Shown one piece after another: positions 8,788 to 55,539 of a DNA stretch of 64,000 nt. The translations under genes were made by a program, and so were the position numbers. Origin of the DNA: Betaproteobacteria bacterium. GTDB taxonomy: Bacteria; Pseudomonadota; Gammaproteobacteria; Burkholderiales; SG8-41. The stretch lies in assembly GCA_029863175.1 (NCBI GenBank), contig JAOTVX010000005.1, positions 62,001 through 126,000 of the forward strand. The letters are read 5' to 3'. Below the pieces are notes generated by a model that worked only from the letters and a program-made list of their open reading frames with translations, searched no databases and was not told where the DNA came from. Within the stretch, counting starts at the first letter, position 1, and each line of letters begins with the position of its first letter.

Positions 8788-8865
8788 AAGCCGCGGATTA
8801 ACTCGGCTAAGCTTAAAACCAAGAGCACAAGCGTTAATCGGCGTTAATGTTTAACGCCGATTTTT
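8788..8865. repeat. Word repeat of ATCGGCGTTAA type ending in a terminator
   Basis: Contains GCCGCGGATTAACTCGGC and then a hairpin AATCGGCGTTAA (8836-8847)/TTAACGCCGATT (8851-8862) with loop TGT and a T-run to 8865. The same words recur at 19263-19352 and 33848-33967. The right arm encodes, on the minus strand, the last codons and TAA stop of the proline iminopeptidase gene. Confidence 0.75.
8836..8865 (+). terminator. Intrinsic terminator of qorA
   Basis: Twelve-base-pair stem, three-base loop and TTTTT tail downstream of qorA. It overlaps the convergent pip stop codon at 8851-8853. Confidence 0.85.
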
Positions 8866-10261: not shown

Positions 10262-11637
10262 AGCACGATACGATGGGCGGTGTCGCGGTGCCCGCCAACC
10301 GGCTGTGGGGCGCCCAAACCGGGCGCAGCCTCATTCATTTCCGGTTTCCCAACGAGCTGATGCCGGTCGAAGTCGTGCACGCCCAAGTGCTGGTGAAGAA
10401 GGCGTCTGCGCTTACCAATATGACGATTGGCGTTCTCGACAGGAGAAAGGGCGGCGCTATCGTCAAGGCCGCGAACGAGGCACTCTCGGGCAAGTTCGAC
10501 GAGCACTTTCCGCTCACGGTGTGGCAGACCGGTTCCGGCACCCAGACCAACATGAATGTGAACGAGGTGCTTGCCAACCGCGCGTCCGAGATCCTCGGCG
10601 GCGAGCGCGGAGAGCGGCGGCTGGTGCATCCCAACGACGACGTCAACAAGAGCCAATCCTCCAACGACACGTTTCCCACCGCGATGCACATCGCGTCTGT
10701 CATCGCGCTCGAGCGCGCCGTCAGGCCCGCCGTGAGAGAGCTCCGCGACACGCTCGAGAAGAAAGCCCGCCGCTTTGCGCGCATCGTCAAGATCGGACGC
10801 ACCCATCTGCAGGACGCGACGCCCCTTACGCTCGGCCAGGAGTTCTCGGGCTACGTTTCACAGCTGGATCACGGCCTGGCGCACCTGGACGCGGTGCTGC
10901 CCCATCTGTGCGAGCTGGCGCTGGGCGGCACGGCGGTCGGCACCGGGTTGAATGCCCACCCCCGTTTCGCGGGGAAGGTCGCGGCCGAACTCGCGCGGCT
11001 GACGCGCTTGCCCTTCATCACGGCGCCCAACAAGTTCGAGGCGCTGGCGTCCTGCGATGCCATGGTGCACGCGCATGGAGCGCTCAAGACCCTCGCAGCG
11101 TCGCTGATGAAGATCGCCAATGACGTGCGCTGGCTCGCGTCCGGGCCGCGCAGCGGCCTCGGCGAGTTGTCCATTCCCGAGAACGAGCCGGGAAGCTCGT
11201 TCATGCCGGGTAAAGTGAACCCGACGCAGTCGGAGTCCATGACCATGGTCTGCTGCCAGGTGTTTGGCAACGACGTCGCCATCAGCTTTGGCGGTGCTTC
11301 CGGAAATTTCGAGATGAACGTGTTCCGGCCACTGGTGATCCGGAATTTTCTGCACAGCGCGAAGCTCCTGGCCTACGCCTGCGAGAACTTCGAGGCGCAT
11401 TGTGCCAGCGGCATCGAGGCCAACCGGGAGCGCATCGGGCAGCTCATGCGCACCTCGCTCATGCTCGTGACAGCATTGAATCCCCACATCGGCTACGAGA
11501 AGGCCGCGGCGATTGCGAAAAAGGCGTACCGGGAAGGCACGACTCTGCGGGAAGCTGCAATCGCGCTTGGTTATGTCACCGGAAAGCAGTTCGATAAATG
11601 GGTCCGTCCCGACGACATGGTCGGAAAAATTCCATGA
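10240..11637 (+). CDS. fumC: Class II fumarate hydratase
   Basis: A 465-residue oxygen-stable class II fumarase interconverting fumarate and malate in the TCA cycle, cytoplasmic homotetramer. It has [20 protein letters not shown] near residue 100, the [14 protein letters not shown] segment, [10 protein letters not shown], and the lyase signature [15 protein letters not shown]. The ATG at 10240 follows GGTGGAG. The 5' region is fused to the broken maeB remnant, so the original promoter context may have changed through that deletion. The stop codon TGA is the first base triplet of a TGAATCGTGAA word array. Confidence 0.95.
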
Positions 11638-11672
11638 ATCGTGAAGGGTGAATCGTGAATCGAGAAGCGATG
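11635..11672. repeat. TGAATCG word array after fumC
   Basis: Imperfect tandem of TGAATCGTGAAGGG, TGAATCG and TGAATCGAGAAG. It starts exactly with the fumC stop codon. A GATTCACGATTTACG word in the opposite sense occurs at 49860. Confidence 0.6.
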
Positions 11673-11754
11673 CAGAAATTCGATCGACTGCGGGAGCAGG
11701 TGAGGGGGACTGCTTTTTTCAATACGATGTTCATCCATCGCCCGGGACCGGGCC

Positions 11755-12474
11755 ATGGCTGACATGCGACCTCAGAGAGTTGCGGTGGTGACGGGCGCCA
11801 ACCGGGGAATTGGACTGGAGATTTGTCGGCAGCTAGGAAGACGCAGCGGAATCCGCGTCTTCCTTACCGCAAGGGATGGGACCAAAGGAAACGCGGCCGC
11901 CCAGAAGCTGCGTGATGAGGGACTCGACATGGAGTTCTATCCTCTCGATGTCACGAACGAACAAAGCGTCACAACGTTTGCAGGTTGGCTGGAAGCCACC
12001 TGCAAACGTTGTGACGTACTGATCAACAATGCGGGCGTGATGGCGGACCCGCGCGGCTCGCGCGTTCTTGATTCCCGCCCGGCGACCTACCGGGAAACGC
12101 TCGAGACGAACCTGCTCGGACCGTTGATGCTTATTCAAGCGCTGGTGCCGCTCATGAGAAAGGGCGGCTACGGACGCATCGTCAATGTATCTAGCGGACA
12201 AGGCCAACTGTCGGATATGGGTGCGGGCACGCCCGCCTACCGCGTCTCCAAGACGGCCCTCAACGCGCTGACACGTACTTGCGCGGCCGAGCTGCGGGGT
12301 AGTGGCGTACTCATAAACTCAATGTGCCCGGGCTGGGTGAAAACAGACATGGGCGGGCCGTCGGCGCCGCGCTCGTTGGCGCAGGGCGCGGATACCGCGG
12401 TTTGGCTTGCGACGCTTCCGGAGGGGGGTCCCAGCGGCGGTTTTTTCCGCGATCGCAAGCCGATTCCGTGGTAA
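11755..12474 (+). CDS. Short-chain dehydrogenase/reductase
   Basis: A 239-residue SDR resembling carbonyl-reductase-type members. TGANRGIG is at residues 13-20, NNAG at 91-94, the catalytic Ser in NVSSG at about 146, and Tyr162/Lys166 in YRVSK. Substrate is unknown. An unusual feature is a perfect long hairpin inside the coding sequence covering residues 71-88; the translated stretch ATCKRCDV is atypical, since SDRs normally have a Gly-x-Leu/Ile-Asp-hydrophobic sequence there. The reading frame is intact. ATG 11755 lacks a strong ribosome binding site. Confidence 0.85.
   Translation: MADMRPQRVAVVTGANRGIGLEICRQLGRRSGIRVFLTARDGTKGNAAAQKLRDEGLDMEFYPLDVTNEQSVTTFAGWLEATCKRCDVLINNAGVMADPRGSRVLDSRPATYRETLETNLLGPLMLIQALVPLMRKGGYGRIVNVSSGQGQLSDMGAGTPAYRVSKTALNALTRTCAAELRGSGVLINSMCPGWVKTDMGGPSAPRSLAQGADTAVWLATLPEGGPSGGFFRDRKPIPW
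11967..12016. repeat. Perfect 19-bp inverted repeat inside SDR gene
   Basis: CGTCACAACGTTTGCAGGT (11967-11985) is exactly complementary to 11998-12016. With one bulged T (11986) the pairing continues GGCT/AGCC around a GGA loop, giving 23 bp. Random occurrence in coding DNA is very unlikely; it looks like a quasipalindrome made perfect by template switching. Confidence 0.9.
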
Positions 12475-18635: not shown

Positions 18636-19160
18636 GTGAGCCGGGCTTTTGTCAAAGACAGCGATGATGATCTGGTGGCCGGCGACTTGCCTGAGCGTCC
18701 GCTTTCTCCGCACGCAAACTATGTGACGCCCCTCGGGCTGGAACAACTCCAGGCACGGGTGCGGGAACTGCACGAGAAACACGAGCAACTCTCGCCTCAA
18801 TCGGCCGATGACTCCCAGGCTAAGCAGAAACTGCGAGAGGTCGAGCGTGACCAGCGTTACTTCAACGCGCAACTGGAACGCGCCATTGTGGTGGATCCGG
18901 GCGGGCAGCCACGGGACCAGGTGCATTTCGGTGCCGAGGTCAAGATTAGCAACGAGGAGCACAAGATGCACCAGTTCAGCATTGTCGGTGACGATGAGGC
19001 AGACGTCACTGCCGGCAAGATCAGCTGGGCCTCGCCTCTGGCAAAAGCGATGATGGGCTCGCGTGTCGGGGACACGGTCGTATGGCACCGCCCCGCCGGG
19101 GACGCGCAGGTGGAGATCGTTGAGATCACTTACCCTAAAAGCGTGACTGAGAAGGCGTGA
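18636..19160 (+). CDS. greB: Transcript elongation factor GreB
   Basis: A 174-residue Gre factor that rescues backtracked RNA polymerase by stimulating transcript cleavage. The N-terminal coiled coil contains NYVTPLGLEQLQARVRELH and the acidic loop region around QSADDSQAKQKLREVE; the C-terminal FKBP-like domain has KISWASPLAKAMMG and ends in ..VEIVEITY. Length and N-terminus (SRAFVKDSD) fit GreB rather than GreA. GTG 18636 is the start. The final Lys-Ala-stop (AAGGCGTGA) coincides with the left end of an intergenic repeat element. Confidence 0.92.
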   Translation: MSRAFVKDSDDDLVAGDLPERPLSPHANYVTPLGLEQLQARVRELHEKHEQLSPQSADDSQAKQKLREVERDQRYFNAQLERAIVVDPGGQPRDQVHFGAEVKISNEEHKMHQFSIVGDDEADVTAGKISWASPLAKAMMGSRVGDTVVWHRPAGDAQVEIVEITYPKSVTEKA

Positions 19161-19223
19161 CCGATGGCTCGTGACTGATGAACCGTAACTCGCAAGGCGG
19201 CTTGCCGGTTCGTGTAATCAGTC
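19152..19223. repeat. Repeat end and nested hairpin at greB stop
   Basis: Begins with AAGGCGTGA (19152-19160), which contains the greB stop. A nested inverted repeat follows: GACTGAT (19173)/ATCAGTC (19217-19223), GAACCG/CGGTTC, and GCAAG/CTTGC around GCGG. It may act as the greB terminator. Confidence 0.65.
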
Positions 19224-19239
19224 ATGGGGTACTAGAAGT

Positions 19240-19378
19240 TATCTCAAAACCCAAAATGCAGCCGCCGATGAACGCCGATAGACGCCGATGAGTAAGGAGT
19301 GTGTTGATTTACGAAGGTTTTCTGTCCGCGTTTATCTGTGTTTATCTGCGGCTAATAAGTTTTTCGATTTTTGAGATA
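19240..19378. repeat. Palindromic word element, GCCGATGAACGCC type
   Basis: Outer inverted ends TATCTCAAAA (19240-19249)/TTTTGAGATA (19369-19378). Inside, the left arm repeats GCCGATGAAC/GCCGATAGAC/GCCGATGAG (19263-19292). The right arm CCGCGTTTATCTGTG TTTATCTGCGGC (19326-19352) is roughly its complement. It lies between greB and the CobD-like gene. Confidence 0.75.
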
Positions 19379-19409
19379 CGTTCTAGTCACGCATCAACAG
19401 TCGCGCATC

Positions 19410-20330
19410 ATGAAATTTCTGGCATTGTTGGCGGTGTTGTTGCTCGAGCAGGTACGCCCGCTACACGAGGACAACCGCGCCCATCGCTGGCTTGGCCAGT
19501 ACGCGGCGGTCACTGACCGCTACTTCAACGCCGGAGAGTACCGGCACGGGCTAGTTGCCTGGATCGTGTTTGTCGGTTCCATCGTCGCCGTCACCGCGCT
19601 CGTCTTCCACGCCCTGCACGCGGTGAGCGCGCTGCTCGGACTGCTCTGGGGTGTCGCGGTCCTCTACCTCACGATGGGCTTCCGCCGGTTCAGCCATCAT
19701 TACACCGAAATCCAGCAGGCACTCCGGGCGGCCGATGTTTCAGGTGCGCGCGAGTGGCTTGGCAAATGGCGCGGCGAGAGTGCCAGCGAATTCGGCGCCA
19801 CCGAGGTTGCCAGTGTCGCGATCGAACAGGGACTGCTCGCGTCTCACCGCCAGGTTTTCGGGACGATGGCATGGTTCGTTGTGCTCGGGCCGGCTGGCGC
19901 CATACTTTATCGGCTCGCTGCAATGCTTGAGGAGAAATGGGGTCGTCGCACCGACGGCGAGGTGAGCGCGTTCGGCCGCTTCGCCACGCAGGCGTTTTAC
20001 TGGATTGACTGGGTTCCGGCGCACTTGACGGCCGCAAGCCTCGCCGTCGTCGGCAATTTCGAGGACGCCGCGTACTGCTGGCGCATGCAGGCGCACACCT
20101 GGAGCCCGCACGGGGACGGAATCATCCTGGCGAGCGGGGCCGGGGCGCTCGGAGTTCGGCTCGGCCGTGCGGTTCATGGCAGCGGTGGGCTGGAGCCCGG
20201 GCCGGAGCTTGGCACGGGCGCGGAAGCTGACGTGGATCACATGCAGAGCGCAGTGGGCCTCATCTGGCGCGCGCTCGTGCTGTGGATGTTCCTCGTGCTC
20301 GTGGTCAGCGTTGCTCACGCGCTGGGCTGA
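19410..20330 (+). CDS. CobD/CbiB-family membrane protein
   Basis: A 306-residue integral membrane protein of the CobD/CbiB family, which in cobalamin synthesis attaches aminopropanol phosphate to cobyrinic acid. It starts MKFLALLAVLLLEQVRPLHE, keeps the FNAGEYRHG and HHYTEIQQALRAAD segments, and has about five hydrophobic helices, the last near the C-terminus. This divergent form is common in betaproteobacteria, often away from other cob genes, as here, so its true substrate is uncertain. ATG 19410 was chosen over an upstream frame that runs through repeat DNA. Confidence 0.8.
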   Translation: MKFLALLAVLLLEQVRPLHEDNRAHRWLGQYAAVTDRYFNAGEYRHGLVAWIVFVGSIVAVTALVFHALHAVSALLGLLWGVAVLYLTMGFRRFSHHYTEIQQALRAADVSGAREWLGKWRGESASEFGATEVASVAIEQGLLASHRQVFGTMAWFVVLGPAGAILYRLAAMLEEKWGRRTDGEVSAFGRFATQAFYWIDWVPAHLTAASLAVVGNFEDAAYCWRMQAHTWSPHGDGIILASGAGALGVRLGRAVHGSGGLEPGPELGTGAEADVDHMQSAVGLIWRALVLWMFLVLVVSVAHALG

Positions 20331-20332
20331 AA

Positions 20333-20498
20333 GTAGTGATGAGTACTGGTGACGAGTAGTGATGATGGGAACTGGTGATGGGCCCAACAAAGCGCCCTTA
20401 AATCACGATTTTTCATCACCATTAATCATCACCATCATTCATCACCATCTGCGAGTGACGGAAGTTCGGGTCCATTCGTGACTCACCAATCACGCTTG
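20333..20498. repeat. Palindromic GGTGATGA/TCATCACC element
   Basis: Left arm (20335-20390) carries GTGATGAGTACTGGTGACGA and ACTGGTGATGG words. After a spacer containing GCGCCC, the right arm (20412-20449) repeats TCATCACCATTAA, TCATCACCATCA and TCATCACCATC. It finishes with TCACGCTTG at 20490-20498, which is the rsgA stop on the minus strand. Located between convergent genes. Confidence 0.8.
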
Positions 20499-21389
20499 TC
20501 GTTCCTTGATCAGGTCGCGGTAGGACTTAAGCCGGCGTTCGCTGATCGTTCCCGCCGCGCAGGCCGCTCCTACTGCGCAGCCGGGCTCGCTCAGGTGGAG
20601 GCAATCCCGGAAGCGGCAGTGCCCGAGCCAGGGCCGGAACTCGACAAACGCTTCGGCAATCTCCGCTGAATCGAGATGGTGCAGTCTGAACGCCTGCAGG
20701 CCGGGCGAATCGATGATGTGGGTGTCGTGGTCGAGATGGTAAAGCCGCGCGTGCGTAGTGGTGTGGCGGCCGGAATCGAGCGCGGCGGATACCTCTGCGA
20801 TCCGTACCGCCGCTGCAGGTGCCAGCGCGTTGATGATCGTCGACTTGCCCATGCCGGATTGGCCGACCAGCACGCTCGTCTCGCCGCGGAGGAACACCAG
20901 CAGGGGGCTGACATCGCGCTTTGCTGAAAGCGCCACCACCCGGTAGCCAAGCTGCTGATAGAGCGCCAGTGAATTGCGCGCGCGTGCCGCCTCTGGCAAG
21001 TCTATCTTGTTCAGGACAACGAGGCCCGACATGCCGCCATGCTCAGCGGCGGCGAGACAACGGTTGATGAGGTCTTCGTGGAATGTCGGGACGGGAGCCG
21101 CCACCACGACAATCTGGGTGACGTTGGCCGCAATCAGCTTCTGGCGCGCGCGGTCCGAGCGGTAGAGCAACGTATCGCGCGCCCCGAGCTCCTCAATCAC
21201 GCCCTGGCCGGGACCGCTGTGCATCACACTGACGCGATCACCGCACGCGAGCGCCCCACGCCGTCCCCGCGTCACGCAGTCGAGCGTCGTGGCGTCGTGC
21301 AGTTCGACCAGGTAGCGGCGCCCGAAACTGGCGACGATCTGTCCGTCACACAGGGCGGGCGACGTTTTCTGCTTCCCGCCCGGCATCAA
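20490..21389 (-). CDS. rsgA: Ribosome small-subunit GTPase RsgA
   Basis: A 299-residue circularly permuted GTPase that assists late 30S maturation. The OB domain (about 15-75) is followed by G4 NKID at 127-130, G1 GQSGMGKS at 176-183 and G3 DSPG at 227-230, the permuted order typical of RsgA. The C-terminal zinc knuckle uses Cys258, Cys263, His265 and Cys271. The gene ends Arg-Gln-Ala-stop with the sequence CAAGCGTGA, shared with the repeat element. The phhB gene lies upstream on the same strand. Confidence 0.95.
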   Translation of the reverse strand: MMPGGKQKTSPALCDGQIVASFGRRYLVELHDATTLDCVTRGRRGALACGDRVSVMHSGPGQGVIEELGARDTLLYRSDRARQKLIAANVTQIVVVAAPVPTFHEDLINRCLAAAEHGGMSGLVVLNKIDLPEAARARNSLALYQQLGYRVVALSAKRDVSPLLVFLRGETSVLVGQSGMGKSTIINALAPAAAVRIAEVSAALDSGRHTTTHARLYHLDHDTHIIDSPGLQAFRLHHLDSAEIAEAFVEFRPWLGHCRFRDCLHLSEPGCAVGAACAAGTISERRLKSYRDLIKERQA

Positions 21390-21497
21390 TAATCAAGCCG
21401 CGGATGAAGTCAATGTGGCCGCGGCCGCGCGCTCAGCATTGGTTGCGACAATGTTAGCCTGAGCCGAAACGACTTCATAAAATCAACCACGCACTGT

Positions 21498-21833
21498 TCA
21501 AAGATTAAACAGTGCTTCCAGCTTCGCTGCACAGATGAAGTCATTTTCACTCAAGCCGTTGATGGCGTGCGTCGTGTACTCGACCCGGCACCGGTTATAG
21601 CCCAGGCTGATGTCCGGGTGGTGGTCTTCACGGTGCGAGATCCACGCGGTCGCATTTACAAAGGCCAGCGCCTGGTAATAGTCCTTGAATGCGTAGGTCT
21701 TGGCAATCCGGGCGTCCGAGTACTCCCATCCTTCGAGCTGCTTCACGAGGTTACGGATTTCATCCTCTTTGAGCGGCGCGACACCGCCTTCGCACGGCTT
21801 GCACTTTTTCGCAGCGAGATCGGGTGCGGTCAT
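21498..21833 (-). CDS. phhB: Pterin-4a-carbinolamine dehydratase
   Basis: A 111-residue PCD/DCoH family protein that dehydrates 4a-hydroxytetrahydrobiopterin. It has the catalytic His cluster in ISHREDHHPDISLGYNRCRV, followed by HAINGLSENDFICAAKLE. An N-terminal CKPC lead precedes the domain, as is common in proteobacterial members. No phenylalanine hydroxylase gene is nearby, so in this organism it may serve another pterin enzyme. The downstream gene on the same strand is rsgA, about 108 bases away. Confidence 0.92.
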   Translation of the reverse strand: MTAPDLAAKKCKPCEGGVAPLKEDEIRNLVKQLEGWEYSDARIAKTYAFKDYYQALAFVNATAWISHREDHHPDISLGYNRCRVEYTTHAINGLSENDFICAAKLEALFNL

Positions 21834-21845
21834 GGTCTCAGCACG

Positions 21846-21955
21846 TCAAATTCAGGAATGGGGAATCGGACAAGGGCAATGGGAAATAGGAAACCGCCAT
21901 GCGGCTGCGGGCAGGAAACGTTAATTTCCCATTCCCTATTCCCCATCTACGCCTT
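21846..21955. repeat. Palindromic GGGAATGGGGAAT element
   Basis: Left arm has GGAATGGGGAATCGG and GGGCAATGGGAAATAGG; right arm has TTTCCCATTCCCTATTCCCC (21925-21944). It ends with CTACGCCTT (21947-21955), which is the stop and last codons (Lys-Ala-TAG) of the M48 protease gene on the minus strand. Confidence 0.75.
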
Positions 21956-23185
21956 CTGCAAACGGGCAATACGCACAACGGCAGGCGGATGGGAGTCGTA
22001 AAACGCCGAATGCAGCGGATCCGGCGTCAGGGTCGAGGCATTGTCCTTGTAGAGCTTGATCAATGCGGCGACGAGATCCCGCGCGGACGCGTTCTTGATG
22101 GCGTACTGATCAGCCTCGAATTCGTGTTTGCGCGAGTACATTGCCGCGAGTGGCTGCAGCACAAAGGAGAAATGGGGCACGACGATGAAGAACAGGATCA
22201 GCGCGATCGCGGTCGATGGCGTCGACACGTTAAGGCCGCTGTAGAACCAGGCTTCCTGGATGACATATCCGAGCAAGGCCAGGAGCCCCAGGCTCGTGAG
22301 AAACAGCCAGATCATGCGCTTGAGCACGTGGCGCAGTCTGAAATGCCCCAGCTCGTGCGCCAGGACGGCCTCCACTTCAGGCGGGTCGAGGACGGTTAGC
22401 AGAGTATCGAAAAACACGATGCGCCTGCTTGCCCCGAAACCCGTGAAATACGCATTGCCGTGCGCGCTGCGGCGCGAGCCATCCATTACTACCAGCCCCT
22501 TCACCTTGAAGCCGCAACGCGCGAGCAGGCGCTCGACGCGCTCGCGGATCTCCGGGTCTTGCATTGGGGAGAACTTGTTGAACAGCGGGGCGATCCAGGT
22601 CGGATAAATCATGAGCAGGAAAACATTGAACGCCACCCAGATGACCCAAACGTAGATCCACCAGTAGGCGCCGGAACGCTCCATCAGCCACAGCACGGTC
22701 GCGACGAGTGGCAGCCCAAAAAGCGCGGCCACGAGCGCGCTCTTGACCATGTCCGCGAAGAACAAGGTGCGCGTCATCTTGTTGAAACCGAAACGCTCCT
22801 CGATCCTGAACACCCGATAGTAGCTGAACGGTGTCTCGATCACGGTCAGGCAGACCATAAGGAGCACGATCAGCAGGAGGCCGCGGAGGATGGCGTCGGG
22901 CACCCACGCCGCGGGAATGGTGTACAACAGCTGAAGTCCGCCGCCGAACGTGAGCGTTAGAACGATCGCCGCGTCAACCGCGATGCTGGCCATGCGCAGC
23001 CGCGTCTTGGCGCAGGTGTAGTCGGCCGCTTTCTGGTGGACGGACAGGCTGATTCGTTCGGAGAATTCCGCGGGTACGCCTTCGCGGTTGGCGATGACAT
23101 GGTTCAGGTGTCGCCGCTCGAGCCACAGGCGCGTCGCGGTGGTCAGCGCAACCGCCGCGAGAAATACGATTCCAAAAGTGGTCAT
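21947..23185 (-). CDS. M48 family CAAX-protease-like metallopeptidase
   Basis: A 412-residue Ste24-type membrane zinc protease with about seven hydrophobic helices. HELGH is at residues 277-281 and the third ligand Glu lies in EFEADQYA. Conserved MDGSRRSAHGNAYFTGFG precedes the site. In eukaryotes the family processes CAAX proteins; in bacteria it serves envelope quality control. The gene ends Gln-Lys-Ala-TAG through the AAGGCGTAG end of a repeat element. It diverges from orn across about 110 bases. Confidence 0.92.
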   Translation of the reverse strand: MTTFGIVFLAAVALTTATRLWLERRHLNHVIANREGVPAEFSERISLSVHQKAADYTCAKTRLRMASIAVDAAIVLTLTFGGGLQLLYTIPAAWVPDAILRGLLLIVLLMVCLTVIETPFSYYRVFRIEERFGFNKMTRTLFFADMVKSALVAALFGLPLVATVLWLMERSGAYWWIYVWVIWVAFNVFLLMIYPTWIAPLFNKFSPMQDPEIRERVERLLARCGFKVKGLVVMDGSRRSAHGNAYFTGFGASRRIVFFDTLLTVLDPPEVEAVLAHELGHFRLRHVLKRMIWLFLTSLGLLALLGYVIQEAWFYSGLNVSTPSTAIALILFFIVVPHFSFVLQPLAAMYSRKHEFEADQYAIKNASARDLVAALIKLYKDNASTLTPDPLHSAFYDSHPPAVVRIARLQKA

Positions 23186-23296
23186 TGGGTGAGGTTAACC
23201 TAACAGGCCGGCACGTTCTGTGACAAAATAGCACCGGAAAATTCCGGCGCCGGAAAAAGCGTTGAACGGCGCGCCGTGTCCTCCCGAACAAGAATT

Positions 23297-23842
23297 ATGG
23301 CACAAGACCCCAACAACCTCATATGGATCGACATGGAGATGAGCGGGCTCAATCCCGAAACCGACCGCGTTCTCGAAGTTGCGCTGGTGGTTACGGACTC
23401 GCGGCTCGACACCGTGGCCGAGGCGCCGGTCCTGGTCGTCCGCCAGTCTGCTGCGGTGCTGGATGCGATGGACGAGTGGAACAAGTCCACGCATGCGCGG
23501 TCGGGCCTCATCGAGCGGGTAAAAGCCTCGACAATGTCTGAAGCCGAGGCCGAGGCGCAGCTGCTCGCCTTTCTCGTCGAGCAGGTACCGCCCAACGTCT
23601 CGCCGATGTGCGGCAATTCGGTGCACCAGGACCGGCGCTTCCTTTCCCGCTACATGCCGCGGCTGGAGGCCCACTTTCTCTATCGCAATCTGGATGTAAG
23701 CACGCTGAAGGAGCTGGCCAAGCGCTGGAAACCGGACATCATGGCCGGGCTGAGCAAGCATGGCAAGCACGAAGCGCTTGCCGACATCTACGAGTCGATC
23801 GAAGAGCTCAAGTATTACCGCGAACATTTTCTCAAGCTTTGA
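23297..23842 (+). CDS. orn: Oligoribonuclease
   Basis: A 181-residue DEDDh 3'-to-5' exoribonuclease degrading RNA dinucleotides such as pGpG, the last step of c-di-GMP and RNA turnover. It has [15 protein letters not shown] (first Asp and Glu), the HQDRRFL Asp, and [10 protein letters not shown] with the catalytic His and Asp. The ATG at 23297 gives the canonical short N-terminus; the frame is open upstream. A small CAAGCTT/AAGCTTG hairpin overlaps the stop. Confidence 0.95.
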
Positions 23843-23942
23843 TCAAGCTTGCGAAAATGTAAAACAATCAGTCCGCCTCGTAATGCCGGTGAATCCCGAA
23901 TCGCGAGAGCGTTCTTCATGAGCTGCCGTCGCAACACCGGGA

Positions 23943-24149
23943 TCACTCGAGGCGGATTTCGCCGTCGAACTTGATGTCGACGCTGAGCTTGCCGACGGAG
24001 AGCGTCATTGTTGCGGGAAACACCTCGTTTCCCTTCAGCCGGCCATCGGCGAGTGCCTTGTTCACGGCTTTCTCGACCGCGAGCTGGGAGTTCACGCCCA
24101 CCGTCTTGAGGAACTTTCGGATGCTCATGTTGAGTGCTTCGTCGTTCAT
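23943..24149 (-). CDS. DUF6494-like small protein
   Basis: A 68-residue protein with SIRKFLKTVGVNSQLAVEKA, then LADGRLKGNEVFPATMTL and a terminal two-strand segment SVDIKFDGEIRLE. This agrees with my memory of the DUF6494 family, a small protein widespread in proteobacteria with unknown function. ATG 24149 has a GGAG-type site upstream. It is flanked on its 5' side by a GGTGATGA repeat element. Confidence 0.8.
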   Translation of the reverse strand: MNDEALNMSIRKFLKTVGVNSQLAVEKAVNKALADGRLKGNEVFPATMTLSVGKLSVDIKFDGEIRLE

Positions 24150-24192
24150 TTTTCTCCTCCATTAAAGAACCGTGACCATTGACCCGCTGGAA

Positions 24193-24338
24193 ACCTGGTG
24201 ACGAGTACTGGTGATGAGAACTGGTGATGAATACTGGTGATGAAAACCGCGCTGCACATCACCATTTCTTCATCACCATTAATCATCACTATTTCTAGCT
24301 TCGACTCATCACCCATCACTCATCGCTCATCACGCTTT
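24193..24338. repeat. Palindromic GGTGATGA/TCATCACC element
   Basis: Left arm (24195-24246) has four ACTGGTGATGA-type words. After CGCGCTGCA the right arm (24256-24335) has TCACCATTTCTTCATCACC, TCATCACTATT and TCATCACCCATCACTCATCG words. It ends in TCACGCTTT (24330-24338), the Lys-Ala-stop of pgi on the minus strand. Confidence 0.8.
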
Positions 24339-25982
24339 CCGCCCACTGCGGCGAGCCTTGTAGTAGTTGATCAAGCCCAGGGTAGACGCGTCATGGGCCG
24401 CGACCGGCGCGGCGGCTTCCAGCTCCGGCAGGATGCGATTCGCGAGCTGCTTGCCGAGTTCCACGCCCCATTGGTCGAATGCGTTGATGTTCCAGATGAC
24501 GCTTTGCACGAAGACCTTGTGCTCGTAGAGCGCGATCAGTGCGCCGAGCGTCCGTGGACCGAGCTCATCGAGCAGGATCGAGGTCGTCGGCCGGTTCCCT
24601 GGGAACACCCGGTGTGGCATCAGCCTCTCGATCTCGGCTTCGGCCATCCCCTGCCTGCGCATGGCGGCCGCAGCCTCGTCCGCAGTCATGCCGCGTGCCA
24701 GGGCCTCGGTCTGCGCAAAGAAGTTGGCGAGCAGCATGTCATGGTGCCGGCGCAAACGGTGGTGAGGGCGGCAGCACGCGATGAAATCCGCCGGTACAGG
24801 AGTCGTGCCCTGGTGCAGCATCTGAAAATAGGCGTGCTGTCCGTCAGTGCCCGGCGTGCCCCAGGTGACGGGCGCGGTGTCGTAAACCGCCGTGCTGCCG
24901 TCGAGGGTCGCGCTTTTTCCGCAGGATTCCATCTCGAGTTGTTGCAGGTACGACGGCAGCAGGCGCAGGCGCTCATCGTACGGCAGCACCGCCCGCGCCG
25001 CTGCGCCGCGGAAGTTGACGTTCCACACCTCGAGCAGGCCGAGCAGGGCCGGCAGATTACGCGCGAGCGGTGTGCCGGCAAAATGCTCGTCGATCGCGCG
25101 CCCCCCGGCGCGCAGGTCGTCGAATCGGGCCATGCCGAGCGCCAGGGCAATAGGTAAACCCACGGCTGACCACAGCGAGTAGCGGCCGCCCACCCAGTCC
25201 CACATCCGGAATACGCGGTCAGCGGGCACCCCGAACTCGGCCGCGCGCGCGGGAGCGCTGGTCACTGCGCACAGATGCTTGGCGATCGCCGTCTTCCCGC
25301 GAAGATTGCGCTCGAGCCAGGACCGTGCGGTGAGTCCATTGGTCAGCGTTTCGGCGGTGGTGAACGTTTTGGAAGCGACGATCACGAGCGTGGTGGCGGG
25401 CGAGAGCGCATCGAGCACGGACGTGATGGACGCGCCGTCGACGTTCGAGACGAAGTGCACGCGCAAGCGGCTCCGTGAATCGCGCGCAAGCGCATCGCAC
25501 ACGAGCCGCGGGCCGAGGTCCGATCCACCGATGCCGATATTGACGACGTCGGTGAACGTGCGGCCAGTCGCGCCGCGCGCACGGCCGGTGCGTACGGCCG
25601 TGACCAGGCGTTTCATCTGGCCAAGCACCTCCGCGACTTCGCGCGTGACGTCGCTGCCGTCGAGCATCATCGGTTTTGCCGCGCGTAGCGCCATGTGCAG
25701 TGCCGCGCGATTCTCGGTCGTGTTGACGCGCTCAGCAGAGAATAGGCCTTGGATCGACTTTTCGAGATCGCATTCGCGTGCGAGCGCCAAGAGCAGGCGC
25801 ATAGTGTCAGACGTGACGACCTGCTTCGAGTAGTCGAGCAGAACGCCGCCGCCTGCGATTGAGAAACGTTCAAACCGCCGCGAGTCCTCTTCGAACAGGT
25901 GGCGCAAGTGCGCCTCCGCCAGATTGGCGTGATGCTGCTCGAGAGCCTGCCACGCAGGCAACTGGGTGCGAGATGTCGTCAA
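24330..25982 (-). CDS. pgi: Glucose-6-phosphate isomerase
   Basis: About 550 residues, interconverting glucose-6-phosphate and fructose-6-phosphate. NIGIGGSDLGPRLV, then SKTFTTAETLTN, and the family signature GGRYSLWSAVGLPIAL are all present, with the second signature region GVELGKQLANRI near the end. No ATG fits the family N-terminus (TQLPAWQALEQHH), so TTG at 25982 was chosen; longer frames reach 26156 but look non-coding. Its last codons, AAAGCGTGA, are shared with a repeat element. It is adjacent to a broken lrgB. Transaldolase and glucan phosphorylases lie 30 kb away. Confidence 0.9.
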   Translation of the reverse strand: MTTSRTQLPAWQALEQHHANLAEAHLRHLFEEDSRRFERFSIAGGGVLLDYSKQVVTSDTMRLLLALARECDLEKSIQGLFSAERVNTTENRAALHMALRAAKPMMLDGSDVTREVAEVLGQMKRLVTAVRTGRARGATGRTFTDVVNIGIGGSDLGPRLVCDALARDSRSRLRVHFVSNVDGASITSVLDALSPATTLVIVASKTFTTAETLTNGLTARSWLERNLRGKTAIAKHLCAVTSAPARAAEFGVPADRVFRMWDWVGGRYSLWSAVGLPIALALGMARFDDLRAGGRAIDEHFAGTPLARNLPALLGLLEVWNVNFRGAAARAVLPYDERLRLLPSYLQQLEMESCGKSATLDGSTAVYDTAPVTWGTPGTDGQHAYFQMLHQGTTPVPADFIACCRPHHRLRRHHDMLLANFFAQTEALARGMTADEAAAAMRRQGMAEAEIERLMPHRVFPGNRPTTSILLDELGPRTLGALIALYEHKVFVQSVIWNINAFDQWGVELGKQLANRILPELEAAAPVAAHDASTLGLINYYKARRSGRKA

Positions 25983-26173
25983 GACGGTGTTAAGCGCCGA
26001 ATGATGGCGCGAGCCGGAGATTTCGGCCCAATTGTACCTGTTTTCCCGTCGTGGGCCCCCGTAGAATTGCAATGAAACCCGGACGCGCAGTGCCGGCTTG
26101 ACTCCGCGCCTTGGGGCGGATGTCCCGCAGCCGCTCAATGCGCGGCCCGCATCCAACTGAGCGGAGCGCGCCG

Positions 26174-26440
26174 ATGCTCGGAGCCATTACGACGTTGCTG
26201 GTGATCCTGACCGGCATCAGCGGCGCGGTCATGGCAAAATTCGTCCTCGACGCCCTGCGCATCAAGGACTTCAGCGTGCGCGGGTTTGCGATTGGCATCG
26301 CCGCGCACGGTATCAGAACTGCCCGTGCCTTTCAGGTAAGCGAGGAAGCCGGCGCATTCGCCGGACTTGGAATGGGGTTGAACGGCTTGCTCACCGCCGT
26401 ATTGGTGCCGGTAGTCGTCGGCTTGATCAGGAACTTCTGA
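26174..26440 (+). pseudogene. lrgB: LrgB-family remnant, 5' truncated
   Basis: An 88-residue frame matching only the C-terminal third of LrgB/CidB murein-hydrolase export regulators: ILTGISGAVMAKFVLDAL, then AAHGIRTARAFQVSEEAGAF and GLGMGLNGLLTAVLVPVV. Intact LrgB is about 230 residues with more helices; the first two thirds are missing and the sequence upstream is the pgi leader. No lrgA partner is seen. It may still be translated from ATG 26174, but is best regarded as a fragment. Confidence 0.8.
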
Positions 26441-26451
26441 GGATGCATTAA

Positions 26452-27171
26452 ATGAACCGTGTCATCACTGCGTTTCTCGGTGCCGTGCGCGATCTGCGCG
26501 AAGCGCGCATCCTGGCGCTGGTGCTTGTGCCGCCGGTCGGAGCATTCGTGCTCTGGACTGTTCTCGCCTGGGCGTTCTGGAGCGACTGGATCGCATGGGC
26601 CGACACGATGCTCGCCGCGACGGCGTTCGGCCAGTGGGTGCAGTCGTTCGATCCCGGCTGGCTGGTGAGTTCTGTGGCCACGCTCGTGCTGATCGCGATC
26701 GTCGTACCGCTGATGCTGATCACGGTCGTGGTCATCACCGAGCTCGCTGCCATGCCGGTTATCGTAAAACTGGTAGGCCATCGCCATTTCGGCGCGCTCG
26801 AGCTGCGCCGCGGGGGCACCGTGATGGGCAGCGTGTGGAACGCCGTGCGCGGGATTCTGTGGTTCGCAGCGCTCTGGCTTTTGACGCTGCCGTTATGGTT
26901 GACCGGGATTGGCGCGCTGGTGCTGCCGCCTCTGTTGTCGGCGTGGTTCACCCAGCGCATGTTCCGCTACGACGCGCTGGCAGAGCATGCGAGCGTTGCC
27001 GAGTACCGGAGGGTCGTGCAGGGCAGCAGCGGCCGGCTCATCCTGATGGGCCTGCTGCTGGCGCTACTCTATTACGTTCCCGTGCTGAACCTCGTGGTGC
27101 CGGTGCTCTCGGGGCTTGCGTTCACGCATCTTTGCCTTGGCGAGCTGGCGCGCATCAGGCAGAAGGCGTGA
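26452..27171 (+). CDS. EI24-domain membrane protein
   Basis: A 239-residue membrane protein of the EI24/CysZ-like family (PF07264) with about five hydrophobic helices, including WLVSSVATLVLIAIVVPLML and a C-terminal VPVLNLVVPVLSGLAFTHL. CysZ members carry sulfate, but this group in betaproteobacteria is uncharacterised, so the substrate is unknown. ATG 26452 follows the lrgB remnant by 11 bases. The end Gln-Lys-Ala-stop is encoded by AAGGCGTGA, the same string that ends greB. Confidence 0.82.
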   Translation: MNRVITAFLGAVRDLREARILALVLVPPVGAFVLWTVLAWAFWSDWIAWADTMLAATAFGQWVQSFDPGWLVSSVATLVLIAIVVPLMLITVVVITELAAMPVIVKLVGHRHFGALELRRGGTVMGSVWNAVRGILWFAALWLLTLPLWLTGIGALVLPPLLSAWFTQRMFRYDALAEHASVAEYRRVVQGSSGRLILMGLLLALLYYVPVLNLVVPVLSGLAFTHLCLGELARIRQKA

Positions 27172-27205
27172 CGGCTGATGACTGACGACTCGTCAAGAGC
27201 TTCAC
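27163..27205. repeat. Repeat end at EI24 gene stop
   Basis: AAGGCGTGA (27163-27171) with the stop codon, followed by CGGCTGATGACTGACGACTC. The mirror-image end CCGTCAGTCATCACGCCTTG occurs at 28103-28122. The two bracket the hydrolase gene and its downstream word array. Confidence 0.65.
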
Positions 27206-27266
27206 TGCCAAGGACGTGGAGAAGCTTTAGCTATAATGTCACCGCCGCCGCAGCACGAGGTGCACC

Positions 27267-27848
27267 TTGCATGACCTGAAAGATCTTACGGTCTTTATCC
27301 TTCCCGGCCTGGGCGGCGCGGGGCCCGAGCACTGGCAAACCGCGTGGGGAAAGGCCTTTCCGAGCTTCAGCCGCGTGGAACAGGCCGATTGGGATCGGCC
27401 GGTTTATGAAGAATGGGCGGTCAGGCTCAGCGAGGCGGTGAAGGCAAGCACGCGCCCGGCCCTGCTGGTCGCACACAGCCTGGGCACTTCGCTCACCATG
27501 CGCTGGTCGTTCGATCAACCTGCCCTTGCGCAAAAGGTGGCCGGCGCCTTTCTGGTGGCGCCGACCGACCGGGACCGCTTCGACGCCGCGCCGGATTCGC
27601 CATTGCGCAACTTCGGACCCATGATTCTCAGGAAGTTGCGGTTTCCATCGTTGGTGGTAGCAAGCCGCGATGACGACCGCGTGTCGTTCGAGCGCGCCCA
27701 GGCCTTTGCCGCTGCCTGGGGCTCGACGCTGATCGATGCCGGCAATCTAGGGCATATGGGGTCGGCAGCACAACTGGGCGTCTGGCCTTTCGGCCTGTTC
27801 TGGTTCGGGCAGTTCGTCGCGTCACTCGATCGGCGGCTCGGGACTTAA
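27267..27848 (+). CDS. RBBP9/YdeN-family serine hydrolase
   Basis: A 193-residue small alpha/beta hydrolase. The nucleophile Ser71 lies in AHSLG, preceded by FILPGLGGAGPEHWQ; the acid Asp is in ASRDDDRVS and the His in GNLGHMGS. Family members hydrolyse small esters in vitro but natural substrates are not settled. No ATG is in frame, so TTG 27267 after an AGG motif is used; the ATG overlapping it is out of frame. Confidence 0.82.
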   Translation: MHDLKDLTVFILPGLGGAGPEHWQTAWGKAFPSFSRVEQADWDRPVYEEWAVRLSEAVKASTRPALLVAHSLGTSLTMRWSFDQPALAQKVAGAFLVAPTDRDRFDAAPDSPLRNFGPMILRKLRFPSLVVASRDDDRVSFERAQAFAAAWGSTLIDAGNLGHMGSAAQLGVWPFGLFWFGQFVASLDRRLGT

Positions 27849-28122
27849 CCGACCCGCCTGGGTGATGCGTGACGGGTGATAGGTCATGGGTACCTTAGCC
27901 CAGCAATTCCGAATCTCTATCCATATCTTCACTGGGCGTTGTCTTAGCGTCCTTCCAAAAGCGGTGACTGGTGACTCGTGACTGGACCTGCTGAGGCTCT
28001 TGGTTTTCGTTCGTAAACCTTCGCGTCCTCGGCCTCCTTTGCGGTGAGGCCTTTATCTTCCTTTGCGTCCTCCGCGACCTTGGCGGTGAAGCTTTTGACT
28101 AGCCGTCAGTCATCACGCCTTG
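27849..28122. repeat. Composite word-repeat region
   Basis: Starts after the hydrolase stop with GGGTGATGCGTGACGGGTGA, then ACTGGTGACTCGTGACTGG (27964-27982). Next come CTTCGCGTCCTCGGCCTCC, TTTGCGGTGAGG, TTCCTTTGCGTCCTCCGCG and CCTTGGCGGTGAAGC (28018-28092). It ends in TCACGCCTTG at 28113-28122. Several word families are joined in one gap. Confidence 0.75.
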
Positions 28123-29789: not shown

Positions 29790-29812
29790 TAACTTCGGTG
29801 ACGAGTGATGGG

Positions 29813-29941
29813 TGACGAAGAAACCGTTTCAAGTTCCACGTTCCACGTTCAAAGTTCCAGGTTCCAAGTTCAATGTCAAAGCGGGGAACTTCGCGTGCGA
29901 CGTTCGTCCAACCTTGAACCTTGAACCTTGAACCTTGAACG
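29813..29941. repeat. Palindromic GTTCCAGGTTCC/GAACCTTGAAC element
   Basis: Left arm: GTTCCACGTTCCACGTTC, AAAGTTCCAGGTTCCAAG (29826-29872). A spacer with GCGGGGAACTTCGCG follows. Right arm: four tandem copies of AACCTTG (29911-29939), roughly complementary. It abuts the end of the GT39 gene. Confidence 0.8.
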
Positions 29942-29949
29942 CTCGCCCG

Positions 29950-46957: not shown

Positions 46958-47703
46958 TTAATGAACGACATAGCCGCCGTCGACCACCAGTGCGTGTCCT
47001 GCCACGTAGGCCGCGTCTTTCGAGACCAGGAAAGCCACCACTCCGGCCACCTCCTCGACGGTCCCGAATCGCCCGATCGGGACGTCGCGCGCGCGCTGCT
47101 CGAGTTCGCCCGGGTTGCGGCCCGCGAGGAAGCCTTCGGTGGAGATCGGGCCGGGGCACACGGCGTTGACGTGGATGTTCTTGGCGGAGAGCTCGAGCGC
47201 CATCGAGCGCGTCAGCTGGATGAGCCCCGCCTTCGTAAGGTTGTAGACCGCGCCGTAGCGCGAGGCGACGATACCGAGCTGGCTAGCCATGTGGATCACG
47301 TGACCGCCGCCCTGCGCAAGCATGATGGCACCACCGCCTGGCTCGCAAAAAACGGCGCGCGCAGATTCACAGTGACGAGCCGGTCGAACTCCTCGTGTGA
47401 AAACTCACCGAAGGCCTTGCGTACGCGCAGGCCCGCGTTGTTCACCAGGATGTCAATGCGCTTCATCCGCTGGTGGCAGGCGGCGATCATCTTCTCGGGT
47501 TCGTCGAGGCGCGTGAGATCGTGGATGCCCCACGCGGGGTCCGGCGCGCCGGCCTTGCGGCAGGTGGCGGCGGTTTCCTCGAGCTCGGCCTCGGTACCGT
47601 CGGCCGCAAGGTAGATCGCGGCGCCTTCGGAGGCAAGCCGCAGGGCGACTGCGCGGCCGATGCCGCGCGAGGCGCCCGTGACTGCCGCTCCGGCGAGCCC
47701 CCT
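46958..47703 (-). pseudogene. Frameshifted SDR gene
   Basis: Two overlapping minus-strand frames together make one SDR. The first has GLAGAAVTGASRGIGRAVAL, RIDILVNNAGLRVRKAFGEF and VNLRAPFFASQAVVP; the second has IMLAQGGGHVIHMASQLG, YNLTKAG and ends VDGGYVVH. A missing base near 47326-47330 shifts the frame after QAVVP. No start codon lies between the upstream TAG (47704-47706) and the Rossmann strand, so the N-terminus is also damaged. A sequencing error could explain the shift but not the lost start. Confidence 0.8.
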
Positions 47704-47755
47704 CTACCCGCCGTGCGGGAAGAAGGGACTGCCCGCGGATTCAATGAAGCGCGGC

Positions 47756-48730
47756 TTAGTTGACCGTCAAGCCGGAGTCGCGGATGACCTTGCCCCAGGA
47801 CTTCACTTCATCCAGCACGTGCTGCTTGAACTGGGCCTGGGTGAAGGTGGATGACTCTGCCGCGTTCTGCGTGAGCACGGCCTTGAAACGCGGGTTCTGT
47901 GTCGCCTTCATGACCTCATTGTGCAGCCGCGCCGTGATCTGCTTGGGCACGCGCGCCGGCGAGAAGAATCCGGTGTTACAGCCCATCACGAATCCGGGGA
48001 TGACTTCCGCGACCGCCGGGACATCGGGCCACAGCGGCGAGCGCTTGGGCAGCGTGATGCCGAGGAGCTTCAACCGCTTGGCCTTGATGTGGGGGATGGC
48101 AGCGGAAATGCACGAGAAGTACGCCTGCGCCTCCCCCGAGACCATCGCCGCGGTGGCCGGGCTGCCGCCCTTGTAGGGCACGAGCAGAGCCTGGATGCCG
48201 GTCTCGATCTTGAAGCGCTCGTAGGTGAGGTGCGTGATCGAGCCCGGGCCCGAGGACGCGAACGGCAGCTTGCCGGGGTTTGCCTTCGCGTACTTGATGA
48301 GCTCCTGGATCGAGTTCACGGGGAGCTTGGGATAGACCACGAGCACGGTCGGCGAGCGCGACGGCAGCGCGATTGGCTCGATGGCCTTCACCGGATCGTA
48401 GTTCAGCGTTTTCTTGTGCAGCGTCGCGCTGATCGCCATGCTCGGCACGTCGGTCATGAGGAGCGTGTAGCCATCCGGGTTCGCATGTGCGGCGATTCCA
48501 ACACCGAGCGTGCCGGCGGCGCCGGGACGGTTGTCCGCGACGATCTGCTGGCCAAGCGAAGCGGAAAGGATCTGGCCGAGCGTGCGCGAGATGACGTCGG
48601 TGATGCCGCCGGGGGGCCAGGGAACGATGAGACGCATGGGGCGCGTCGGATATTGCTGTGCGCTTGCCGGCACGAAAACGGGCAATAAAACGATCGCGAG
48701 CAGCAGGCTTGCAGCTTTAGCGGCTTTCAT
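47756..48730 (-). CDS. Bug-family TTT substrate-binding protein
   Basis: A 324-residue TctC-like periplasmic receptor, paralogous to that at 44.8 kb. A signal peptide (about 1-25) precedes YPTRPMRLIVPWPPGGITDV and VADNRPGAAGTLGVGIAAHA. ATG 48730 is preferred over 48736 because AGGAGG lies seven bases before it but only one base before the other. It diverges from the SDR at 49.0 kb and lies upstream of the broken SDR on the same strand. Confidence 0.92.
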   Translation of the reverse strand: MKAAKAASLLLAIVLLPVFVPASAQQYPTRPMRLIVPWPPGGITDVISRTLGQILSASLGQQIVADNRPGAAGTLGVGIAAHANPDGYTLLMTDVPSMAISATLHKKTLNYDPVKAIEPIALPSRSPTVLVVYPKLPVNSIQELIKYAKANPGKLPFASSGPGSITHLTYERFKIETGIQALLVPYKGGSPATAAMVSGEAQAYFSCISAAIPHIKAKRLKLLGITLPKRSPLWPDVPAVAEVIPGFVMGCNTGFFSPARVPKQITARLHNEVMKATQNPRFKAVLTQNAAESSTFTQAQFKQHVLDEVKSWGKVIRDSGLTVN

Positions 48731-49005
48731 GGTCATACCTCCTGATTTGCGGTGTCGGGGTGCGGCCTTTCGTGACCGCGTCTTCCTGTGCTGGTTCGAT
48801 CGGCGCAGTCATCGGCTGCCCGACGCGCTCTCTTGCGGAAGCCACACATGTTCGGCGTACGAAAGCGGAAACCATGTTAGAACTCCGCCAGATTGCATGT
48901 CAACAAGATCAACAGCGATGTGCCCGTCCGTGATCCCGCCCTCTGACATGGCCCGCGTTATACTGAACGGCCCTGAACGAATTTTCCGCGAGAGAAGAGG
49001 AGCGC

Positions 49006-49757: not shown

Positions 49758-49912
49758 ACTGGTGATGGGTGGTGGTGATGAGGCCCGCCCGAAGCCAGGA
49801 GGATGAAGGTCCTACCCGGGTGATGGGTGATGGGTGATGCATGATGCGTGACGATGTCCGATTCACGATTTACGGCAGTTCCGATCTACTCGCCACTCAC
49901 CATTCACGCTTT
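49758..49912. repeat. GGTGATGG word array with TCACGCTTT end
   Basis: ACTGGTGATGGGTGGTGGTG, then GGGTGATGGGTGATGGGTGA (49819-49838), CGATTTACGGCAGTTC (49866-49881) and CCACTCACCATTCACGCTTT to 49912. It lies between convergent SDR genes. CGATTTAYGGCAGTTC recurs at 50804-50819 on the other side of the next gene. Confidence 0.75.
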
Positions 49913-50661: not shown

Positions 50662-50689
50662 TATCTATCTTCTATGCGTGAGGGGGCCG

Positions 50690-50850
50690 GCCCGAAGGCA
50701 GACGGCAGAAGGATGAAGGATGAAGAATGAAGAATGAAGAATGAAGAATGAAGAATGAAGGTCATAGCCGGGTATTGGGTATTGGGTATTGGGTGATGAT
50801 TTCCGATTTATGGCAGTTCAGGACGATTCGCCATTTGCGCTTTTGAGAGA
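50690..50850. repeat. GAAGAATGAAGAATG and GGGTATTGGGTATTG arrays
   Basis: GGCAGACGGCAGAAGGATGA then at least five GAAGAAT units (50714-50760). Next come three GGGTATT units (50770-50790), then CGATTTATGGCAGTTC (50804-50819), shared with 49866-49881. One-armed relative to other elements. Confidence 0.75.
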
Positions 50851-51361: not shown

Positions 51362-51375
51362 GCGAGGCGTGCCCG

Positions 51376-51490
51376 TCTAAAGTTCAAAGTTCCAGGTTCA
51401 AAGTTCAAAGCGCAAACCATCGAATCCCTTCGCTCTCCAACCTGGAACCTGGAACCTGGAACCTGGAACCTGGAACATTGAACATTAAAC
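51376..51490. repeat. Palindromic GTTCAAAGTTCCAG/CCTGGAACCTGGAA element
   Basis: Left arm AAAGTTCAAAGTTCCAGG and TTCAAAGTTCAAAG (51379-51410). Spacer, then five tandem CCTGGAA units (51440-51475) and ATTGAACATTAAAC. Same family as 29813-29941. It precedes the end of the VOC gene. Confidence 0.8.
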
Positions 51491-51500
51491 GGGACGCGCG

Positions 51501-55460: not shown

Positions 55461-55539
55461 TCTTCCGGTGACCGGCAGCCGGGATGAGGGCATGAACGGT
55501 GTCCCCGTGGTCTGTTTCCGTGCCGGGGAAGGAGGAAGT

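Follow-up and report, generated by a model that had tools for sequence, protein, structure and literature searches.

Intergenic heptamer arrays that often stand in register with the TGA stop codons of neighboring genes in a group of uncultured betaproteobacteria

Do repeats supply the stop codons of the genes beside them, or do they begin at stop codons that were already there? The question is raised by a 64,000-nucleotide stretch of the genome of a Betaproteobacteria bacterium (contig JAOTVX010000005.1, positions 62,001 to 126,000; this whole stretch is called the window below), where five unrelated genes, namely greB, rsgA, pgi and the genes for an M48 protease and an EI24 protein, end in nearly the same nine bases, joined directly to intergenic repeats. 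A sequence-only reading had taken these bases for the fixed end of a repeat element that reads as Ala-stop, and all the nine-base ends that it listed were recovered in place when we re-read the sequence. The repeats are intergenic arrays of 7-bp words, which often form hairpins with the same word inverted in both arms. The cases are unified by register: an array often starts on, and runs in step with, the TGA of the neighboring gene, and the gene stop usually came before the array.

When the window is read in sevens, the TGA of the gene is the first unit of the array in greB, EI24, pgi, rsgA and fumC, and not in M48. That the fumC stop opens a TGAATCG array had been proposed before and is confirmed by this reading. 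The window proteins have Pfam support as GreA_GreB, RsgA, M48, PGI, EI24 and fumarase C. The gene ends and their arrays are as follows.

19152-19160, plus strand: end of greB, AAGGCGTGA; the 3' end with its array covers 19140..19193, the stop lies at 19158-19160, an older GCGTGA is now out of frame, and the sevens from the stop are TGACCGA TGGCTCG TGACTGA TGAACCG
27163-27171, plus strand: end of the EI24 gene, AAGGCGTGA, with the in-register units TGACGGC TGATGAC TGACGAC (27163..27189)
20490-20498, minus strand: end of rsgA, CAAGCGTGA, with in-register TGATTGG TGAGTCA and then a GGTGATG/CATCACC hairpin (20331..20498), flanked by convergent genes
24330-24338, minus strand: end of pgi, AAAGCGTGA, with the units TGATGAG CGATGAG TGATGGG TGATGAG and then a hairpin (24180..24338); TGA occurs twice over in the array word, in different phases, of which one is in register
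11635..11662, plus strand: fumC stop as unit one of TGAATCG TGAAGGG TGAATCG TGAATCG
21947-21955, minus strand: end of the M48 protease gene, AAGGCGTAG, with a GGGAATR array and its inverted partner (21834..21955), off register; the stop is TAG

The window alone has too few genes for a proof: a stop triplet stands at +4 or +11 behind 7 of its 50 stops, a weak signal when seven shifted registers give 2 to 7. The wider tests were run on the genomes of relatives (G002, G001, G055, G059 and a mixed family set), which are apparently mostly draft metagenome-assembled genomes (MAGs). The closest relative is G055, whose M48 protease is 87% identical to that of the window, the top value among 74 genomes of the family of the lake MAG L053 (73% for L053 itself), and whose DNA matches two 20-kb pieces of the window at 67-95% identity, taking the ten best matches per piece. 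One region, window 47663-49737, has 95% DNA identity to contig C55 of G055, whereas most long matches have 75-90%; it was possibly transferred or is strongly conserved. Genes were called with a custom script rather than a standard caller, using one model per genome and a single pooled model for the pieces of 14 family genomes, and genes below the score cut-offs and ends too near the end of a stretch were excluded before counting. The pooled sample of window and relatives holds 1457 stops, 183 with an adjacent 7-bp array and 1274 without; an adjacent array is one detected in the downstream sequence alone that starts at most 30 nt from the stop.

Of the arrays in the pooled sample that repeat a stop triplet, 40 of 110 keep register with the gene stop (15.7 expected, p=7e-9). 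The in-register share is 31/46 for arrays that start 0-2 nt from the stop, 7/30 at 3-6 nt and 2/34 at 7-30 nt, and overall it stays at 28-36% across eight detection settings. A detection-free count over 1466 genes of the relatives has TGA peaks at +4 (5.3%), +11 (5.0%) and +18 (3.8%), that is, TGA again 7, 14 and 21 nt after the gene stop, with 0.8-3.3% at the other offsets from 0 to 31; array-poor controls (600 genes at 31 loci of other genomes) have 1.0, 2.2 and 1.8% at the same three positions. Behind TGA stops of the relatives, 181 of the 627 TGAs at offsets 4-31 are in register (p=4e-21), whereas behind TAA and TAG stops there is no excess (58/367, p=0.22), nor is there at the control loci (42/250, p=0.15). 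The signal is present in G002 (61/238), G059 (58/195) and the mixed family set (61/230), each with p<1e-5. The M48 neighborhood is over-represented in the pooled sample, and the test was repeated without it: 96 of 377 TGAs are then in register behind TGA stops (p=8e-9) and 29 of 235 behind TAA or TAG. Relative to start codons, the phase of arrays is uniform (n=56, p=0.78).

Among periods, seven and its multiple 14 stand out. In 400 kb of G002 we counted 135 lag-7 arrays, along with 96 at lag 14 and at most 16 at other lags, and further lag-7 arrays in G001 (22 in 279 kb), G055 (37 in 381 kb), G059 (64 in 348 kb), 14 further family genomes (29 in 353 kb) and the window (11); shuffled G002, G001 and window sequence had none. 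Eight of the 75 M48 loci that span 8 kb or more carry a 7-bp array (L053, L001, L011, L004, L019, L035, L005 and L009). The records L004, L005 and L006 are MAGs labeled Bordetella parapertussis, yet they group with the family of the environmental MAGs, and their labels look wrong. In G002, 124 of 146 arrays lie less than half within called genes, and gaps of 30-600 bp hold an array in 56 of 166 convergent, 139 of 708 tandem and 19 of 188 divergent cases. The words are many: the G002 sample has 69 canonical words, the commonest of them in 12 arrays.

Of the 183 stop-adjacent arrays, 51 are followed by their own word in inverted form no more than 200 nt downstream (8.8 on permutation, maximum 19); therefore many elements are hairpins. 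Orientation counts show that in inverted pairs the G-rich strand points away from the flanking gene. Three more arrays of the window lie outside the genes listed above.

29805..29949, minus strand: GGTTCAA array with inverted partner, beginning 9 nt past a gene stop, without register
51362..51500, minus strand: GGTTCCA array with inverted partner
50689..50770, plus strand: TGAAGAA/TGAAGGA array

Folding z-scores fall below -2.5 in five of eight stretches of the window: the GGTTCCA array (-6.4), rsgA (20331-20480, -4.9), pgi (-4.8), greB (19161-19240, -3.7) and the GGTTCAA array (-2.9). The remaining three are M48 (-1.9), fumC (11638-11787, 0.3) and 27849-27998 (0.3). The hairpins have a putative role at transcript ends. 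Both orthologues have an array in 31 of 1576 pairs and a single one has it in 327, and a word is common to both orthologues in 3 of the 31, with 2.3 for random arrays; the words turn over. The idea of conserved array sites, the same gaps carrying hairpins across relatives, was dropped on these counts. Two window hairpins, 24195-24297 and 29826-29940, match many places in G055; therefore words are common to elements within the genus, though orthologous sites in the wider family differ.

Comparison with orthologues bears on the order of events. The stop usually predates the array, because 17 of 18 in-register genes have one or more array-free orthologues that stop at the same residue; for 12 of the 18, at least half of the array-free orthologues do so. 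In-register genes have the same aligned stop as array-free orthologues in 62% of 121 comparisons, which derive from 18 genes with each pair counted by direction, and an unaligned tail of at least 5 residues in 0.8%; for array-free against array-free genes the values are 52% and 18.3% (2371 comparisons). The M48 protease is the clearest case: in G055 (TAA) and G009 (TGA) it has no array and ends in Lys-Ala-stop all the same, and in G002, G059 and G011 (two to three units) it is followed by in-register units whose words differ. Array-free orthologues with the same Lys-Ala-stop speak against the notion that the repeat brings these residues along.

On the one hand, array-coded ends do exist. In G002, G001, G005 and G003, EI24 overruns the alignment by 10-23 residues into array-like sequence. 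The end of greB is probably of this kind as well: by eye, greB in the window and in G055 passes the GCGTGA that is its end in G006, G059 and G062 and stops 14 nt, or two units, later, and it may be a rescued frameshift. On the other hand, such ends are a minority: the repeat clearly runs into the coding sequence in 5 of the 183 array-adjacent genes, and the same score is reached in 14 of 1274 others. In several of the window genes named above the stop codon is a repeat unit, and the proposal that repeats supply stops stands for a few genes but not as a rule.

The arrays have a fairly sharp boundary on the side of the gene. Across the 40 in-register arrays, the self-match at 7 nt, whose high value over the stop follows in part from how these arrays were defined, is 0.75 at -4 (the base before the stop), 0.47 at -5 and 0.28 at -6, which is about background. 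Upstream of the stop, 31 of the 40 extend by no more than 3 nt, and 35 do so when extensions scoring <3 are disregarded. When the sequence is left uncut, arrays at TGA-stop genes begin most often between -5 and -2 (30 of 120; 7 of 55 at other stops). In 13 of 183 cases, the array repeats the final six bases of its own gene (5.1 when permuted, p=0.0003; the p values of the gene-end copy tests, made in sets of 15 and 10, are uncorrected).

The longer shared end fares less well than the stop itself. As a fixed end, the nine bases are hardly above chance: GCGTGA ends 10 of 183 array-adjacent genes and 36 of 1274 others (p=0.07), and in G055 alone 0 of 27 and 10 of 276. The shared bases center on (G)TGA, with GTGA at 50/183 against 202/1274 (p=0.0003) and TGA at 124/183 against 704/1274 (p=0.001). 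Only in-register arrays show an enrichment of GCGTGA (5/40 against 41/1417, p=0.007). In the window it ends greB, EI24, pgi, rsgA and a transaldolase gene (55468-56664), the last of which lacks an array, as does its G055 orthologue, whose end is likewise GCGTGA; the excess over the pooled rate (5/48 against 46/1457, p=0.017) belongs to a comparison chosen after the fact. A fixed nine-base element end was therefore rejected as a rule, the words also differing among elements, and elements with fixed Ala-stop ends are not general.

With moderate confidence, we favor the reading that an array is anchored on a pre-existing (G)TGA, which acts as a seed, and is grown by 7-bp copying away from the gene. 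The (G)TGA of the gene end would serve as the anchor or seed for copying by slippage or template switching, the stop codon would become unit one of the array, and building would proceed away from the gene, with selection on the C-terminus hindering growth inward. In a minority of cases, the array would overrun the gene end or catch a frameshift, and would then supply the stop. The stop may be a seed rather than only a safe place for an array to touch, because the effect is specific to TGA, the boundary is one-sided and the final six bases recur in the gene's own array. More tentatively, stops might be the birthplaces of tandem repeats: 7-nt copying at (G)TGA would start an array whose word is inherited from its own stop, and array and inverted arm would then co-evolve and drift into element-specific words. 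If so, a TGA in every frame would let the array catch frameshifted ends, so it may later rewrite C-termini.

Several results weigh against seeding at the stop. Most adjacent arrays are either off register (70/183) or without a repeated stop triplet (73/183), and in 8 of the 40 in-register arrays the gene stop and the array triplet are unlike. Register is not significant in the closest relative, G055, taken alone (37/203, p=0.07), nor in G001 (22/128, p=0.21). The self-match of in-register arrays has a bump of 0.45 at -8, and in uncut sequence 27 of 175 arrays start more than 5 nt inside the gene (19 with TGA stops, 8 with others), so the boundary is not absolute. Outside in-register arrays, gene-end copying is weak (six bases, 6/143 against 2.8, p=0.047; four bases, 21 against 19.6, p=0.41). 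Genes in general tend to share their stop residue with an array-free orthologue (348 of 440 array-free genes do), and the sharing therefore shows an old stop, not a seed. Gaps between divergent genes hold arrays as well (the 19 of 188 given above). This last point also suits an alternative that we regard as unlikely: arrays would arise anywhere between genes and spread toward them, and selection would act as a filter, since only a phase-matched TGA overwrites a stop harmlessly, and in-register arrays would thus be those observed in contact with stops. The sharp drop of self-match at the stop, the arrays away from stops and the turnover of words between orthologues all agree with such a filter. 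Yet reaching 40 of 110 would require an approximately threefold loss of off-phase arrays near stops, and in-phase arrays could overwrite tolerant C-termini, whereas in most of the 40 they reach no more than 3 nt upstream.

That a repeat lands in the gene end, or expands across it, and in this way provides the stop appears improbable as a general account. The EI24 tails in four relatives, the greB stop shifted by 14 nt and the arrays that begin inside genes are what it would predict, but long unaligned tails are rarer in in-register comparisons than among array-free genes, the stop residue is kept in 17 of 18 genes, and clear extension into the gene is confined to the 5 of 183. A mobile element with TGA as its target site, inserting at stops and carrying a ready-made word, is very improbable: the elements are dispersed and their boundary is TGA-specific, but in the G002 sample, with its 69 words, they share no sequence beyond the 7-bp design. 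We give least credence to selection for backup stops downstream of genes. A TGA-bearing heptamer does close all three frames within 21 nt, and greB may be a frameshift rescued in this way; however, the 7- and 14-nt peaks lie outside the frame of the gene, and backup stops in frame were rejected, with no excess of stops at in-frame offsets 0-15. Moreover, when arrays are read in the direction that leads off from the gene, stop words are just as frequent beside starts (56/94) as beside stops (110/183); stop content as such is therefore a property of the strand, and its interpretation as selection for stops was rejected on account of this same bias at start codons.

How do these arrays compare with known repeats? 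Repetitive extragenic palindromes and bacterial interspersed mosaic elements (REP/BIME), as well as miniature inverted-repeat transposable elements (MITEs), are short, dispersed, intergenic and foldable, and are defined by a conserved sequence or by fixed ends. What unites the present arrays is their 7-bp design; GCGTGA is no general end, and words differ between elements. A 7-bp tandem unit, a location mainly between genes and the presence of inverted pairs place the arrays among the intergenic heptamer simple-sequence repeats.

The sequence-only reading knew of no described class of elements with this property, but heptamer repeats that overlap stops have been published (PMC4679880, PMC4692102). 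The GGGAATC repeats of Xanthomonas and the GGGGA(C/T)T repeats of Nostoc (Rehm et al. 2015, PMC4692102) are alike in their 7-bp unit and mainly intergenic location; their G-rich strand lies in sense within 50 bp of stops, and some overlap the stop. Many form inverted pairs, 70 and 75 of them in the two Xanthomonas genomes, and, as here, fewer repeats lie between divergent genes (PMC4692102). According to the sections describing them, these repeats have one consensus word per genome, whereas here there are many, each hairpin having its own (69 words in the G002 sample); GGGAATC contains no stop triplet and those sections mention no stop register (PMC4692102), in contrast to the TGA register here. 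In marine Beggiatoaceae, the heptamer TAACTGA has stops in all frames, and 13 sets of it overlap the stop of the upstream gene in one genome (MacGregor 2015, PMC4679880). As portrayed there, it is a single word that lies mostly just upstream of starts, whereas our arrays have other words and are commonest in convergent gaps; the overlaps are explained as tolerated insertion or position, and the relevant sections mention neither a register nor an orthologue test (PMC4679880). Among long simple-sequence repeats with units of 5-11 nt, heptanucleotides are reportedly the commonest class in many bacterial genomes, and polymerase slippage has been proposed (Mrazek et al. 2007, via PMC4679880); that survey, as recounted there, concerns abundance, and the account draws no link to stop codons. 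In a literature search that covered few subscription papers, we found no published account of TGA register with stops, of many words per genome or of an orthologue test of the order of events, nor one of the origin of heptamer repeats. TGA-specific anchoring at gene ends would offer a testable origin for them and would explain their overlap with stops. It would also make the arrays a record, kept in nature, of the birth and turnover of 7-bp repeats and their matching hairpin arms, and of the occasional change that they bring to a C-terminus.

Three further features of the window had been named along with the gene ends.

8837..8861, minus strand: ATCGGCGTTAA and an inverted copy at the end of a hydrolase gene (gene end 8851)
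28113-28122, minus strand: CAAGGCGTGA, a further end without a gene stop
49904-49912, minus strand: AAAGCGTGA, a further end, with which heptamer units (49888..49912) begin 3' of the stop of a short-chain dehydrogenase gene (49924), not at the gene's own stop

The hydrolase gene had been called pip and said to end inside a hairpin. A short palindrome is indeed there; the protein is an alpha/beta hydrolase, the palindrome is not a heptamer array, and it is absent at the same gene end in G055. Two more dispersed repeats lie in the window. Window 19231-19384 is a repeat with 13-bp-like spacing (GCCGATGAACGCCGATAGACGCCGATGAG) that matches several other G055 contigs, and window 28018-28096 (CTTCGCGTCCTCGGCC...) belongs to a different family of dispersed words, which G055 matches at several sites.

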